Source: Coemansia sp. RSA 487
Taxonomy: Eukaryota > Kickxellomycota > Kickxellomycetes > Kickxellales > Kickxellaceae
Direction: 5' to 3'
Assembly (NCBI GenBank): GCA_027577595.1
Contig: JANBRJ010000004.1
Coordinates: 124,001 to 188,000, forward strand
DNA length: 64,000 bases
The notes under the pieces were generated by a model. It saw only the letters and a list, made by a program, of their open reading frames with translations. It ran no database searches and had not been told where the DNA came from. The position numbers were made by a program, and so were the translations under genes. Shown piece by piece: positions 26,480 through 53,683 of this stretch (within the stretch, counting starts at the first letter, position 1; the number at the start of each line of letters is the position of its first letter).

Positions 26480-28379
<1,900 letters not shown>

Positions 28380-29347
28380 AGGGTATGCCCTGAGCTCTTT
28401 ATTCTCCGCAGCTCCTTCACTTGTCCATGGGTGGGAAGCCCAATTTTTTCTTTCCTTTGCTTTATTTTCTTCTCCTTGCTTTTTGAGCTTGGGCGTTCTA
28501 AATAACATTTTGCTTCCCCTCTATCTACTATCTACTACAGCTATATATCGTAACCACCATGTTATGTTATAGCCAATCTGCAGCATTTGCGAGTGCAACG
28601 GATTTTGTCCTATCGACATCGTCCACATTTTGCAAACAATCGGCTGTATCTTTTTCTAGTGCTGAGATGTTATTGCATGAAAGCTGGAGCGCCGCAAATG
28701 TCAAATGCAAGCTGATGGTCAAGGATATCGATAGGGTTGTTTGTGTTTTGGCTTGTGAATCAATAGTATAATAGTATTTGCACAAAATAAAGGCCACGTT
28801 GCAAAAACGTAGCCTGCCACACGACAATATTCGATAGCTGTGTGAATGAGTACAGAACATCCAAGCTTGACAACCAAAGCTGTATTTATTTTTGGTTTTG
28901 GCACTACCAAAAAAGGGCAGGTGAGGCAGGCAAATCACAGCATCAGACATAACAGCTAGCCAATTGCCCAGTCGAAAACTTCCACCTTGTTTGCGGAGAT
29001 GTGATTGGCTGGTCACACAAACTAGATTCCTTCAACGCCAAGTCTTGCCTCCAAGCAAAAAAAAAAGCTTTAAACAGGGCAATCTGCCCCACTTTGTCTT
29101 TAGCCTTTCTCTTCTTCTCACACATTATTTTCAAAGTATTTAGCAGTTTGACTTTCGCTTGGTTTTTTATCTGTTAAAGCGCTGTAGTATATTTTTTCTC
29201 ACACTAAAGAAATCTAAACAACCGCCCTTCTTTCGCTTCGCCTACCCTACGCCGACCTCGCTGGTCATCCTTCTCTTGAATTTGCGTTTTCCTGCTTTGA
29301 GCTTGGCCATTTGTGCAATCGTAGATTAGCTTTTGCTCTAACCAACA
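28380..29347. other. Intergenic region upstream of the HAC1-like gene
   Basis: 968 bp without a supportable gene. T-rich polyubiquitin 3' flank, then AT-rich sequence; a pyrimidine-rich stretch at 29210-29310 leads to the HAC1-like start. Confidence 0.45.
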
Positions 29348-31018
29348 ATGAGCCGTGTTTCAAGCGCAACACCGCACGCAGCAGACAAAGTCGAGAAGGA
29401 TACCGGTATAGGTGCGGGCGTTGGTGCAAGTGAGCTCGAGGCAAGCGCAGGCGAAACCAGGAAGCGCAAGCACTCGACGGTGATCACGACATCAAGTGGA
29501 GACTTTGACCTCAGCCTGCTTGATCCGCCACGCCCTGGAAGGCCGCCCAGGACAGCGTCTCAAGACCCTGCGATGCAAGAGGCTCGCAAGCGTGCTCGGG
29601 TTCTGCGCAACCGCGCGGCGGCCCAGCACTCGCGCGAGAAAAAGCGCCATCATCTGGAGAACCTGGAGCAGGAGAACTCGGAGCTGCGTGCCAAGAACTC
29701 GGAGCTCGAGGAGCGTCTTAGCAGAGCTGAGGACGCCAACGCGGCGCTCTCGTCGAGGCTTGACACGCTTTCACAGCAGTTCCAGGGGCTCCAGTCACTA
29801 CTTCTGAATTCGCAGAAGCAGCACGTGCCCTCAAAGTCTGCGTCGTTGCCACTTCCTGGCGTAACAGCAGCGCAGCAGCAGCAGCACAGTCTTGCTACAT
29901 CTAGCATGCTGGATTGGAACTCGTTGGCAGTTTCTCCTCTCCATGCACCACTGGATGGCACCCAGACGTGCATGCGTTCCAGCGACTCGTCGTTCACCTA
30001 CACCAACGCCATAACCAACACAACATCATCATCGCAAAACACCTTTGCATCTGCAGCAGCGGGTACACCAACGCGGATTCCAGCAGCACTGGATGCTTCA
30101 CCCGCTTCCGCCCCAACCATCACACCCAGCTCGCCCCAGAATATCGTCTCCAGCGCAAACATATCGGACTCGTCGCTTCTAACAGCGATGACCGATGCGA
30201 TTGCCGCCACATCGCCCGGCTCAAAGCCATCGGCAGCCACGAGGATGCACACTTCCAGCGTAGCAGCGTCGTCAGATTTCTCCGGCAAGGACTTGTCCGA
30301 GTCAGCAGCACTCGAGCAGTCGGGAGCACACGAATTTCGTGTAGCACTTGATTCCCAGCAGCGGATGCCCTTGCCATGTACGGAGAATATCTACCGCAAC
30401 CAACGACTGCAAACGCAGTCTTTGGAAGCAACTCTGGAAGCGTATTCCTCAGCCAGCTCATCCAAGAACTGGGCGCAGCGGATGGCCAGCTTAGCAGTGG
30501 CGGTGATAGTGTCGGCATCACCACAGAGCAGCCTGCAATCGATATGGACGATGTTCTGCGCTTTATTGTGGATCATCAGTCAAAGTGGAGGCTCGATCAG
30601 CAAGCACCAAGTCTCGCGCATAGCGTGTGGGATTTTGGAGTACCCTCAGCAGCAGCAGCATCAACGTCGTCAAACCTCCGCTAACCGCCAGGATGGTGGA
30701 AGCGATATTATTGCGGCATTGCTGAACAAGAGCACCGGCACCTATGCTAGGAGCTGGACTACTATGCGCGCAACGGCTCGTCAGAATAACAATGTAAATG
30801 GCGTGGCTAGCCTTGCGCTCCTGCTCTCGTGGCTCAACTGTGGGTCACAGATCGGGGTGGCGTTGCGACGCGTGGTAGGTAGCGAGTCGGTTGATAAAGT
30901 CGGCACACTTGCTGCGGAGCTACTCGTGGCTGTTCGTTCAGGCAACAACCGTAGGCACCATCGCTTCCGCACTAGCGGCGCGGTCTGTAATAAACAAAAA
31001 CTGTTTTCACCGCCCTAA
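29348..31018 (+). CDS. HAC1: HAC1/XBP1-like bZIP transcription factor; unspliced frame
   Basis: The unspliced frame encodes 556 residues. The bZIP (basic region about 79-101, zipper about 104-150) contains RVLRNRAAAQHSREKKRHHLENLE, very close to yeast Hac1 RILRNRRAAHQSREKKRLHLQYLE. This makes it the unfolded-protein-response factor activated by the ER kinase-nuclease IRE1. A Ser/Thr/Ala-rich region follows. At residue 320 lies the predicted IRE1 intron (30306-30358). Removing it gives a 427-residue protein ending at 30684, with the acidic segment AIDMDDVLRFIVDH. Without splicing, translation continues to 31018 through a hydrophobic stretch about 379-411 (SLAVAVIV, MFCALLWII). ATG in ACCAACAATGAGC context. 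Confidence 0.85.
   Translation: MSRVSSATPHAADKVEKDTGIGAGVGASELEASAGETRKRKHSTVITTSSGDFDLSLLDPPRPGRPPRTASQDPAMQEARKRARVLRNRAAAQHSREKKRHHLENLEQENSELRAKNSELEERLSRAEDANAALSSRLDTLSQQFQGLQSLLLNSQKQHVPSKSASLPLPGVTAAQQQQHSLATSSMLDWNSLAVSPLHAPLDGTQTCMRSSDSSFTYTNAITNTTSSSQNTFASAAAGTPTRIPAALDASPASAPTITPSSPQNIVSSANISDSSLLTAMTDAIAATSPGSKPSAATRMHTSSVAASSDFSGKDLSESAALEQSGAHEFRVALDSQQRMPLPCTENIYRNQRLQTQSLEATLEAYSSASSSKNWAQRMASLAVAVIVSASPQSSLQSIWTMFCALLWIISQSGGSISKHQVSRIACGILEYPQQQQHQRRQTSANRQDGGSDIIAALLNKSTGTYARSWTTMRATARQNNNVNGVASLALLLSWLNCGSQIGVALRRVVGSESVDKVGTLAAELLVAVRSGNNRRHHRFRTSGAVCNKQKLFSPP
30306..30358 (+). other. Predicted 53-nt unconventional (IRE1-type) intron of HAC1
   Basis: Both cuts would fall after the third base of identical 7-nt loops CAGCAGC (30303-30309 and 30356-30362), fitting the IRE1 consensus CNG|CNGN. 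The first loop is closed by five perfect pairs, CGAGT (30298-30302) with ACTCG (30310-30314), extendable past one mismatch. The second has three pairs, TCC with GGA, a weaker stem. Between them ACACGAA and TTCGTGT (30328-30342) form a third hairpin. The length is 2 modulo 3, as needed to enter the downstream frame, and the piece carries that frame's in-frame TGA (30349-30351). No GT-AG intron of plausible size makes the same shift. Confidence 0.75.
30361..30684 (+). CDS. HAC1: Spliced-form C-terminal exon of HAC1 (second frame)
   Basis: 107 codons in the frame that the predicted IRE1 cut opens, starting with the Ala-Asp-Ala-Leu-Ala-Met-Tyr codons. Codon choice here is biased like neighbouring genes, whereas the overlapping unspliced frame uses ATA three times. 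It contains FLSQLIQELGAADG and AIDMDDVLRFIVDH, an acidic/hydrophobic mix as in activation domains, and ends at TAA 30682-30684. The same DNA is therefore read in two frames. Confidence 0.7.
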   Translation, partial: ADALAMYGEYLPQPTTANAVFGSNSGSVFLSQLIQELGAADGQLSSGGDSVGITTEQPAIDMDDVLRFIVDHQSKWRLDQQAPSLAHSVWDFGVPSAAAASTSSNLR

Positions 31019-31410
31019 GTCAGAGCAAATACCCCAAGCATTTGCTCTGCTTTTTTATATTCTTTCATAGCTCGCACTTTTCTGCACTTTATATTTTCTC
31101 TAATCAATAAGTGTCAATACCAACACCTGTTTTGAAAATGTGTTTTGGTTCAGGTGAAAAAAAGAGCTGAATTCTTGATTTGATTGGCAAGCTGTTTAAA
31201 AAATTTTTATCAAGTGTTGAAAAAAGCGTGCATTTTTCGTTTTCTTTTTCTTTTTTTTTTCTCATTTGATGCTTTGTTCTTGAAACAACCATCCTTTATT
31301 TGGCACATACACGTATCCTTTTTTTCTCGCATTAACACACCTACCTATATAATCAGGAGAGAGTATCAAAGGACATAGCAAGTTATCTGTTATTTATTTC
31401 ATATACAGCC
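31019..31410. other. Intergenic, T-rich
   Basis: 392 bp; T-rich tract at about 31235-31262. Terminator of the HAC1-like gene and promoter of the next; no gene seen. Confidence 0.45.
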
Positions 31411-33117
31411 ATGCAGACACGCGGATCCACTGTTAACACAGAAACCGGCGCAGTAAGCACACCGCCCGCCGAAACAGCCGAAGGGAAGAGGAGTACGAGT
31501 ACACGGTTGCGTTCAACACGCACCAAGAGCAAAGCTATAGCGGTATCGTCTGAGGAGGAAGGCGCAGAGCCACAATCAATGACACCGACCAGAAGATCCA
31601 CGCGGACGGCGGCGCGGAAGGCCACCGAGCTGATCCATGATGTTACAGATATCCTGAGCCCACGTAAGCGAACAGCAGCCAAGAAGGCAGAGAAGCAAAG
31701 CTCTGCAGATGATGAAGTCGTGGTGATGTCGCCGAGGAAGGTAAGCAGAGGAGCGACGACGCCACGTTCAACCCGCGGCGCTCGGAAGATTGACGACCCG
31801 GAAGGAGATGCCAGAGCGCCTGGGTCGCCTACGCCGCGCAGGCGTACGACACGTAGGACGGCCAGCGCGGATAGCTTAGCTAGCGCCACCAGCGCCGAAG
31901 ACGAAGGTATTGTTGAGGAGGTGAAGAAGACACTGGCGCGCCGTGGACGGCCACCCAAGGCAAGCAAGAACAGCGTGGATGACTCGACTGATAGCATGCT
32001 GGATCTTTTGCCACCGCCGCATCCTGATGTGGATAACGCGGCAAGGGCACTGGCGTCGCTGGCTGGCGGAACTCGCAGACAGGCCACAATATTGGCCCAG
32101 CAGCAGCATCAGCAGTCGCAGTCTTCAGGCCAATCCGTCGATGAGGGCTTCAAGACCCCACCCGAAAGCCCCCAAGTGGCAGCTGTGGGAGCTACAGAGA
32201 GCTCCAAGGACGAAGAGTATAGCTCATCAAAGGAAGGGGAAGATGAGACATTCGAGGATGCTGTGGACGAGATATCTGATCTCAGCGACATCGGTGACCC
32301 GCACTTCACGGAAATAATGAGCTCCAAGGCGGCGACGGCTGCGATATCTGCGGCAGGGAGCATGGCGGGCAGCGTCACAGGTGACTCAGATGTCGAAAGC
32401 GACGACGATGAGGCACCCGAGATGGTCACATCAAAGGCGCCTAGGGACAAGCAACCGAATGCCAAGGAGGCAAGCGATAACCAGGATGCGGTGGTTCCAA
32501 AGAGTACCGCTGGCAACGACGGGAAGCCAGAACAGTCCGCACGTGCGAAAAAGAGACGCCGTGCTCGTCACCGCAAGCGCGCAGTTGTGATGGAGGCAAG
32601 GAAGAGTGTATCTGCTGCGATGAGCGACCTGTCCAAGCGCCATGCGTTGATGGCCAGCACGCTGCCCTCAGACATCCCCGAGGAGCTGCGGCTGGAGCTA
32701 CACGAGAAGCTTGTGGTCGATCCAGAGAAGCTTCCAGCCAAGCGCTCCACTGCTGCAGTGGCAGCCGGCGACAAGCTCGACACATCGGTTCTCGAGCAGT
32801 TTGCGCAGCAGAGCAAGAATAAGCGCAGCAAAGCCGATGCAGAAACATTGCTGTCGGCTGAGCGGAAGCGTGCGCGCAAGGAAAAGAAGAAGAAGAACAA
32901 GAAGGACCGAGCATCGCGGGTTGTCTCTGGGATCAATGTCGTTGCGTCCCGGTCAGCATCGAAGACGAATCTACTTCAGACTTTGGCTCAAAGTGTCCCA
33001 GACTCGGTCCGCCGCTTTGCAGAGGAGAAGCACGGCGGCAACCGCGTCAAACGCTCCGACCCGCTTGTTGCCATTGCGCGCAGCAACAACCAGGCTGCAA
33101 TTAGCTTTTTTAAGTAA
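31411..33117 (+). CDS. Basic/acidic nuclear protein, UTP16 (BUD21)-like C-terminal region
   Basis: 568 residues, charged and largely disordered. N-terminal part is Arg/Thr/Ser-rich with TPRRSTR-type repeats and an AT-hook-like RRGRPPK near residue 175. Middle: acidic DEEYSSSKEGEDETFEDAVDEISDLSD. Then DVESDDDEAPEMVTSK, a basic KKRRRARHRKR, and SDIPEELRLELHEK, followed by Lys-rich tracts. The order 'SDDDEAPE ... basic ... LPEEL' recalls the Utp16/Bud21 subunit of the small-subunit processome, but yeast Utp16 is far shorter. I infer a nucleolar or chromatin-linked protein; the UTP16 link is weak. Single exon, clear ATG. Confidence 0.6.
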   Translation: MQTRGSTVNTETGAVSTPPAETAEGKRSTSTRLRSTRTKSKAIAVSSEEEGAEPQSMTPTRRSTRTAARKATELIHDVTDILSPRKRTAAKKAEKQSSADDEVVVMSPRKVSRGATTPRSTRGARKIDDPEGDARAPGSPTPRRRTTRRTASADSLASATSAEDEGIVEEVKKTLARRGRPPKASKNSVDDSTDSMLDLLPPPHPDVDNAARALASLAGGTRRQATILAQQQHQQSQSSGQSVDEGFKTPPESPQVAAVGATESSKDEEYSSSKEGEDETFEDAVDEISDLSDIGDPHFTEIMSSKAATAAISAAGSMAGSVTGDSDVESDDDEAPEMVTSKAPRDKQPNAKEASDNQDAVVPKSTAGNDGKPEQSARAKKRRRARHRKRAVVMEARKSVSAAMSDLSKRHALMASTLPSDIPEELRLELHEKLVVDPEKLPAKRSTAAVAAGDKLDTSVLEQFAQQSKNKRSKADAETLLSAERKRARKEKKKKNKKDRASRVVSGINVVASRSASKTNLLQTLAQSVPDSVRRFAEEKHGGNRVKRSDPLVAIARSNNQAAISFFK

Positions 33118-51912: not shown

Positions 51913-52743
51913 CTACTTGATCTTGGCGCCCGGAACGCACTGCTCCCATGTGGCTAGGACATGGTCGACGATCTCGTTGACGTTCTTGCCGTGCTTGACG
52001 ACAGCCATAGTGACGGGGCCGCTGTCGCGGATATGGTGCGCGTCGCGTAGCATGACATCCAGATCAGCGCCCACGGCGTCAGCAAGATCGGTCTTGTTGA
52101 TGACCAACAGGTCGCTCATGGTGATTCCGGGGCCGCCCTTGCGTGGCACCTTGTCGCCGCCGCTGACGTCGATGACGTAAATGATGTAGTCGGCGAGCTC
52201 GCGGCTGAAGTTGGCTGCAAGGTTGTCGCCTCCGGACTCGATCAGCAGCAGCTCCGTGTCGAACTTGGCGTGCAACGCCTCCAGCGCATGCAGATTGGCC
52301 GTGATGTCCTCGCGCACGGCGGCGTGTGGGCATCCGCCGGTCTCGACCGCCACGATGCGGTTGGCGTCAAGGGCGCCGTTGCGCGTCAGGAACTCGGCGT
52401 CTTCGCGAGTGAAAATATCGTTTGTCACACACGCGATGTTGTACTTGTCGCGCAGCGCCTGGCACAGCTTGAGCATCAGTGCCGTCTTGCCGCTGCCGAC
52501 GGGCCCGCCGATCCCCACCGTGAAAGCGCGCTCGCCCCAGTCGCGCCCCGTGCGGTTGTACGGCGCGCGCTCGTGGTAGCGCCCCGGGTGGTCCAGCACG
52601 TCGTGCGTGTGTCCGTGCTCGATGGCATGGTCATGCGAGTGCCCGTGGCTGTGCGAGTGCCCGTGCGAAGCACCAGAGGTGCTGCCGCTGCCGCTCTTAA
52701 AGTCACACACGTCTCCGCTGCCGTCTGTGTTGCTGGGTGCCAT
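51913..52743 (-). CDS. ureG: Urease accessory GTPase UreG
   Basis: SIMIBI-class GTPase that drives nickel insertion into urease, acting with UreD and UreF. 276 residues: a His-rich N-terminus (about 25-50, [12 protein letters not shown]) that can bind nickel as in plant UreG, then the GTPase domain with P-loop [11 protein letters not shown] (79-89), the CPH metal motif at 138-140 ([11 protein letters not shown]), [15 protein letters not shown], and NKTDLAD as the base-recognition NKxD. Length and motif order are standard. Urease, UreD and UreF are not in this window. Single exon, ATG at 52743. Confidence 0.97.
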
Positions 52744-53683
52744 GTTCTGTTATATGCGATCGTGTCTTGGTCAAAAGAGTGTGGGCTAATGTGGTTTGAA
52801 AAGTGTGTCCTAGACCGAACCAAGATGAGTTTGAAAGGAGAGCAAGAGAGAGGGGAGGCGTGACGAGCTTTTCCACTCGCTTTAAAACATTCTTTGCTTC
52901 ACAAACCAAAGCCTCACACTATCTCCCCCGCCAAGTTCATTAACTGCATTCCAGTTTCATAGCCCGATCCAGCAACCATGCCGACAAAAAGCGCGCACTT
53001 CTTCTCGAACCCTCCTCAGCCTTCGCTTGCTTTGCCAATCGTCTCATCTTCCTCACAAGTGCACACCCCGACTTGTTCTGTACACGATACATCCGCCTCA
53101 CCCATCCCATACAACCGCCACCTAAGCACAAACCGACCAACTCCTGGCGCATCCAATGCTGTGCAGAGGAGGCCAGGCGAAACCTGCTTGAAACAACTCG
53201 CTCCTTTTGTCCCCTTGGCTTGTCTCCTTTGTTTGTCCCCTTGGCCTGCTATTGCCTATTTTAGCTCCGTGAGGCCGACACGGCAAAAAAACAAGAAAGC
53301 GAATGGCTGTTCTGGTAGCAACAAAAACCGGCCGGCAGCTTCAGCAGCGCCTACAGACAAGCATTGACCAGATCCCATGCCTAAAACGCCAAATGCGGAA
53401 TCAGCAAAGGCTTTTATTGCATACAACAATGTGGCACGCCGCAAAACACGCCAGTCCAAGAATACAAAATGCACCAAATGCCGGAACGCCTTTCCGTTCC
53501 TTTTCCTTCTCAACACATTTTCTGTTATCTTCAACTGGCCATCAACATTACTGCACGTGTTATTGCTTTCTTTCCCGCACACAGAACCGTCCACAACTTT
53601 TGCGAATTAGACAGTCTTCACCGGTCCCCAGCTACCGCCGCCTCAACACTTACCCCAAGCTCTACATATCAAGGCCAGGGATA
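52744..53683. promoter_or_regulatory. Divergent intergenic region, ureG/C1-THF synthase
   Basis: 940 bp between head-to-head starts. An ATG frame at 52978-53367 (129 codons, Ser/Pro-rich) has no codon bias or homologous features and was not accepted as a gene. Pyrimidine-rich stretches are frequent. Confidence 0.4.

Follow-up and report, generated by a model that had tools for sequence, protein, structure and literature searches.

A predicted 53-nt IRE1-type intron with twin CAGCAGC loops in a HAC1-like gene of Coemansia sp. RSA 487

The HAC1-Like Gene and Its Surroundings

The window, i.e., the whole stretch of 64,000 nucleotides of Coemansia DNA that was analyzed, carries on its forward strand a HAC1-like gene coding for a bZIP protein (Table 1), and also encodes a 1,3-beta-glucan synthase, a GH72 protein with an X8 domain and an ERG4/ERG24 sterol reductase, three neighbours from families associated with fungi. 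The bZIP domain is matched by the Pfam families bZIP_2 (E 3e-08) and bZIP_1 (E 1.7e-06). Among 11 bZIP reference segments, which provide a similarity ranking and no tree, the best match of the basic region is Aspergillus HacA (63.9 bits, 43% over 82 aa), followed by yeast Hac1 (50.1 bits), the remaining nine of the 11 scoring 36.2 bits or less. The protein hence appears to possess the Hac1-type basic region expected of a HAC1/HacA orthologue. A search for relatives by protein pattern, one scan per collection, gave 185 hits from genome_contigs and 14 from viral_contigs, neither collection being aimed at fungi, and 0 of these hits were confirmed. A search of 29000-31500 against Rfam gave three sub-threshold matches, all irrelevant, and, as a candidate UPR element of the promoter, a single CANCGTG-type match is located at 28795, ~550 nt upstream of the gene.

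Two further features of the window deserve a mention. A polyubiquitin gene (27690-28379) is composed of three units and ends in a single M; compared to human ubiquitin, all three units bear P19S, E24D, N25R or K, A28E or D and T55Q, and two of them S57G, some of these positions being rarely changed in ubiquitin. On the reverse strand, a coding-like stretch with a histidine-rich start (51916-52749) looks like the urease accessory protein UreG.

Table 1. Features of the HAC1-like gene and of its predicted IRE1-type intron (positions in the window)
Feature	Position	Strand	Basis
HAC1-like gene, frame 0 (unspliced) ORF, 556 aa	29348..31018	+	ORF
Exon 1, 319 codons + 1 base	29348..30305	+	coding score +0.15 per codon
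bZIP domain, HacA/Hac1-like basic region	29579..29731 (aa 78-128)	+	Pfam
Predicted closing helix, 5' arm (UUCUCCGGCAAGG), pairing with 30382-30387 and 30369-30375; 6-nt bulge 30376-30381	30278..30290	+	MFE, centroid
Predicted 5' splice-site hairpin, loop CAGCAGC 30303-30309, predicted cut after 30305	30298..30314	+	fold
Predicted IRE1-type intron, 53 nt	30306..30358	+	loops, frame scores, shuffles
Predicted long hairpin filling the intron between both splice hairpins	30319..30352	+	fold
Predicted 3' splice-site hairpin, 3 bp, loop CAGCAGC 30356-30362, predicted cut after 30358	30353..30365	+	fold
Exon 2, post-splicing frame, +108 aa after codon 319, giving 427 aa	30359..30684	+	
Predicted closing helix, 3' arm	30369..30387	+	MFE, centroid, pair probabilities
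Candidate short spliceosomal intron (or 30625-30691), branch-like CTAAC, CAG end	30640..30691	+	
Coding-like tail, frame 0, read unspliced or reached via a second conventional intron	30685..31018	+	G+C, score

Twin CAGCAGC Loops at the Borders of a Predicted Intron

Within the gene, a CNG|CNGN heptamer loop stands at each border of a 53-nt segment (2 modulo 3), which lies 3' of the bZIP domain and whose removal changes the C-terminal frame. An original prediction, made from the letters alone, had proposed this segment as an IRE1-type intron, and it was exact regarding the position and letters of the two CAGCAGC loops, the perfect 5-bp stem CGAGT/ACTCG under the first one and the length of the intron; its admission that the 3' stem has three pairs only was likewise borne out. 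The segment begins with CA and ends with AG, and it thus has neither GT-AG nor GC-AG spliceosomal borders.

CNGCNGN heptamers are common in the window (924, i.e., 462 per strand), and 20 are present inside the HAC1-like gene. A perfect Watson-Crick stem of at least 5 bp is found under one of the 924, namely the heptamer at 30303, while with G-U pairs counted 5-bp stems occur under seven heptamers of the forward strand (30303 included) and one of the reverse strand. With Watson-Crick stems of 5 and 3 bp, 30303/30356 is the sole pair of hairpin loops spaced by 15-100 nt on either strand of the window, and it stays unique when the stems, still restricted to Watson-Crick pairs, are relaxed to 4+3, 3+3 or 4+2 bp. 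By chance, 0.0067 such 5+3 pairs are expected per 64-kb strand (300 Markov-1 simulations). When the codons of 29348-30683 were shuffled with the CAG-rich codons kept, a 5+3 loop pair arose in 7 of 20,000 shuffles, and 0 of 20,000 combined such a pair with a closing helix of 7 bp or longer.

These shuffles bear on the simplest alternative, namely that IRE1 splicing does not occur and that the locus is an ordinary intronless gene for a 556-aa bZIP protein, the loops being a by-product of its CAG-rich coding sequence. Such a gene would fit with frame 0 being open throughout and with the many CNGCNGN sites mentioned above. However, the rarity of the loop pair in shuffles retaining the CAG codons and the poor quality of frame 0 past the junction, where it scores 14 nats worse and is enriched in W and C (see below), both speak against it, and we consider an intronless gene very unlikely.

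Predicted RNA Fold

Folding of 30270-30390 gave a minimum free energy (MFE) structure of -41.6 kcal/mol with which the centroid agrees (z -2.38; 6 of 200 shuffles as good), the shorter stretch 30285-30380 standing out less (z -1.73; equalled by 12 of 200 shuffles). The fold also contains an element that the original prediction lacked, a predicted closing helix of 13 bp, made of GGCAAGG/CCUUGCC (30284-30290/30369-30375) and UUCUCC/GGAGAA (30278-30283/30382-30387), with pair probabilities of 0.78-0.97 for the inner 7 bp and of 0.72-1.0 for the outer 6 bp. In the predicted fold, this helix bounds a junction from which the 5' hairpin, the long intron hairpin and the short 3' hairpin emerge, so that both splice hairpins would be held inside one closed structure, as in IRE1 introns. 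Taken alone, the inner closing helix is not uncommon: shuffling of the flanks yields at least 7 bp in 2.4% of 5000 cases, and 3.9% of 1727 window positions offer as much. Regarding the middle hairpin, which had been proposed as ACACGAA/TTCGTGT, it is present in the fold but its seven nucleotides cannot all pair, as the loop would keep 1 nt only; it is predicted to form 6 bp with a 3-nt loop (30328-30333/30337-30342) and to extend to 30319-30352.

Each loop is predicted to sit on a stem, of 5 and 3 bp respectively, the 3' hairpin being a minority conformer which competes with an adjacent small stem. Enforcing the 3' hairpin gives -40.7 kcal/mol vs. -41.6 kcal/mol for the minimum, and forcing both loops to be fully open gives -40.3, i.e., 1.3 kcal/mol above the minimum. 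Sampling 2000 structures from the ensemble of each of three stretches gave a fully open 5' loop in 30-33%, a 3' hairpin with an open loop in 8-9% and the two together in 2-3%. A yeast-like pairing of the 5' UTR with the intron was also considered and rejected, the duplex being no better than what ~31% of 300 shuffles reach in energy.

Reading Frames Around the Junction

The reading frames were compared using a codon model trained on 13 ORFs of the window. The 387 control windows overlap (60-nt steps) and were drawn from these same training ORFs, and hence the control scores are slightly flattered. Over 30361-30681 (107 codons), the post-splice frame scores +4.7, frame 0 -9.2 and the third frame, which has 4 stops, -31.6. 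In the controls, an off-frame outscores the true frame in 7 of 387 windows, and in 2 of 387 it does so by at least 14 nats. Exon 1 and exon 2 together reach 52.6, vs. 37.7 for frame 0 alone. The post-splice frame had been credited with a better codon bias: it does fit the local coding statistics better, by 14 nats, but this gain comes from the amino-acid make-up, and the synonymous-codon part is nearly equal in both frames (-7.6 vs. -8.8). W and C account for 6 of 108 frame-0 codons past the junction, compared to 2 of 319 in exon 1. The post-splice frame is acidic (9 D, 3 E, 1 K and 3 R over 30361-30681) and resembles exon 1 in its abundance of S and A. This frame is stop-free over 30361-30681 in 2.6% of 5000 shuffles; of 66 intergenic pieces, 9% attain its score and 0 of 66 are stop-free. 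In the last window of exon 1 (29948) it is stop-free as well, with a near-neutral score of +1.7. The TGA that excision had been said to remove does exist (30349-30351), but it belongs to the downstream frame, and the exon-1 frame has no stop there and is open to 31018.

When the change of frame is allowed at any position, the best score is obtained at 30400 (56.0), above the one of the IRE1 excision, and the scores at 30350-30360 are 51.3-51.9. This optimum would suit a conventional GT-AG intron located nearby (e.g., from 30271 or 30301 to 30452 or 30497), which would produce the frame change and make the RNA fold coincidental. As a yardstick, five introns of the window were read by eye at exon junctions: they measure 132 to 233 nt, have a G+C of 0.42-0.46 and possess the donors GTAAGC, GTAAGG, GTAAGT, GTGTGT and GTAAGC. 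If no branch-site rule is applied, the same frame change could come from 45 GT-AG pairs spanning 40-300 nt, and in 13 of them the donor shares 4 of 6 bases with GTAAGT, like the one of the window intron with GTGTGT. However, 0 of 45 have a GTAAG donor, vs. 4 of the 5 introns read in the window. A branch-site rule leaves only candidates with GC donors, this rule being too strict since it also missed all MTHFD1 introns, which went unlisted. Such an intron would, moreover, leave the unique loop pair unexplained, and we consider it very unlikely.

The same optimum (56.0 vs. 52.6) could be accounted for by two indels from sequencing or assembly, the first near 30350-30400 and the second, compensating it, near 30650-30690, which would fake a frame excursion, and CAG runs are present at 30356-30361 and 30647-30658. 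Nevertheless, this scenario, which requires two errors and the coincidence of a unique IRE1 fold at the first of them, is very unlikely.

Comparison with Known IRE1 Introns

The following comparison draws on excerpts of the cited papers. The IRE1 intron measures 56 nt in HXL1 of Cryptococcus neoformans (PMC3154848) and 65 nt in cib1 of Ustilago maydis (PMC8071499), and inside one yeast clade the HAC1 introns vary in length between 19 and 848 nt (PMC6222058). An intron of 53 nt is thus inside the known range, and the original claim that this length would represent a distinct architecture finds no support. Very probably, the Coemansia gene is a new example of the known IRE1 on-switch rather than a new kind.

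Close parallels are found in basidiomycetes. Cryptococcus HXL1 shares with the Coemansia gene the intron length class, a CAG at both borders, predicted stem-loops and an altered C-terminus behind the bZIP, but the bZIP of Hxl1 is called very divergent from Hac1/Xbp1 (PMC3154848), unlike the HacA/Hac1-like one of Coemansia. Ustilago cib1 has likewise an intron of intermediate length and the IRE1 consensus CNG|CNGN (PMC8071499), the consensus reported for yeast Ire1 being CNG|(C/A)NGN (PMC8104961). With Aspergillus HacA, the gene shares a HacA-like basic region, whereas the introns of filamentous ascomycete HAC1/HacA are only 20-26 nt long (PMC8071499). As in Verticillium dahliae HAC1, with its potential 526 aa unspliced and 417 aa spliced (PMC8071499), the unspliced ORF is longer than the spliced one, here 556 and 427 aa. 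The switch of the C-terminal frame by a twin-loop IRE1 intron is also a feature of plant bZIP60 and animal XBP1, although the intron of bZIP60 is shorter (23 nt; PMC4891664). For early-diverging fungi, the excerpted paper on anaerobic fungi gives Ire1 and no HAC1 intron (PMC10512342).

Proposed Mechanism

With its HacA-like bZIP type, its paired loops in a closed multi-hairpin fold and its frame statistics, the segment has the support expected of the IRE1-type intron originally predicted at 30306-30358, and we believe with good confidence that it is a genuine one in a HAC1/HacA-type gene, cleavage and ligation being what we infer from the sequence. Upon ER stress, IRE1 would cut both CAGCAGC loops behind their third base, at 30305 and 30358, while the closing helix and the intron hairpin would keep both loops together in a compact junction. 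Following the joining of the exons by an RNA ligase, the loss of 53 nt would make translation leave frame 0 for the second frame, and an acidic C-terminus of 108 residues would substitute for the one of 237 residues, converting a 556-aa protein into a 427-aa protein. This acidic tail would act as activation region.

The locus hence offers a well-formed and readily testable putative IRE1 substrate, in which a 53-nt, largely hairpin-filled intron pairs a HacA-like bZIP with an intron length class reported from basidiomycetes. A comparison with relatives would help to date changes in intron length.

The Unspliced Frame and the 3' End of the Gene

Beyond the junction, frame 0 is stop-free over 30359-31015, a situation met in 0 of 5000 dinucleotide shuffles (mean, 7.7 stops). 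In the tail that follows the post-splice stop, its coding score per codon is +0.039, vs. -0.27 and -0.28 for the other frames. From this stop (30684) to 31018 the G+C is 0.56, and it then falls to 0.27-0.38 per 55 nt. In a control made of the 110 nt that directly follow each of 14 other ORF ends of the window, where the polyubiquitin end was set 3 nt too far downstream, the G+C has a mean of 0.37 and a maximum of 0.49. The tail as a plain 3' UTR was therefore rejected, since its G+C persists at 0.56 until 31018. Given the open frame 0 and the drop of G+C at its stop, the coding sequence very probably runs to 31018.

Two routes could lead to this stop: continuous translation of frame 0, or a conventional intron in addition to the IRE1 one, either 30640-30691 (52 nt) or 30625-30691 (67 nt), which would bring exon 2 back to frame 0. 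In the latter case, the spliced protein would end at 31018 and have 521 or 516 aa, and retention of the IRE1 intron would give a form of 441 or 436 aa. The coding-like tail, an acceptor CAG with a CTAAC 6 nt upstream, and a total coding score of 58.8 for either version, vs. 52.6 with exon 2 ending at 30684 and 42.0 with frame 0 throughout, argue for a second intron. On the other hand, the two candidates differ from the five window introns in their length, in their donors (GTACCC and GTGTGG, respectively) and in their G+C (0.60 and 0.57). Furthermore, frame 0 is stop-free at -9.2 in the overlap, which 0 of 387 control windows attain at either off-frame offset, a weak argument given that an exon-1 window of the HAC1-like gene itself does so at offset +2 (29948). 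We thus prefer continuous frame-0 coding, with a potential 556-aa unspliced protein, on account of these controls, and only mildly so because of this exon-1 window; the second intron is rather unlikely. The second-intron variant retains the IRE1 intron, so that confidence in the exact protein lengths is lower than in the intron itself.

With an unspliced frame that is open and coding-like, one may ask whether fungi produce HAC1u proteins and put them to use. In plants and animals, bZIP60u and XBP1u are translated (PMC4891664), and in Verticillium dahliae the excerpted account reports the unspliced HAC1 form as being without immunoblot signal (PMC8071499). One may imagine that the C-terminal half is dual-coded under selection, hydrophobic stretches of the 556-aa form guiding the nascent chain or mRNA to the ER membrane, as does animal XBP1u, until splicing puts the activation tail in place of this one. 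The hydrophobic stretches of the frame-0 protein (aa 381-417 and 486-504) are moderate: the best Kyte-Doolittle 19-mers of the tail reach 1.42 and 1.34, the latter being also the value of the XBP1u segment, and the summed Hessa values are positive, and hence true transmembrane helices are not supported, unlike in bZIP60u, which has a transmembrane domain (PMC4891664). Among 150 off-frame control pieces, 21 reach 1.34, and thereby match the hydrophobic stretch of the overlap, and 17 reach 1.42. Because of this moderate hydrophobicity and of the 21 of 150 controls that are as hydrophobic, we deem a membrane-directed unspliced form unlikely.

Near the end of the gene, an AATAAA (30989-30994) lies inside the frame-0 tail, ~20 nt before the stop codon; if it is a polyadenylation signal, it sits oddly with a stop at 31018. 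Finally, 3 nt past the frame-0 stop, a perfect 10-bp hairpin with a 9-nt loop (31021-31049, forward strand) is followed by a T run and may represent an element in the presumed 3' UTR of this mRNA. It is one of three hairpins of the window with 10 Watson-Crick pairs and a loop of 3-12 nt, and a second perfect one, also of 10 bp with a 9-nt loop, is located upstream of the polyubiquitin gene (27102-27130).
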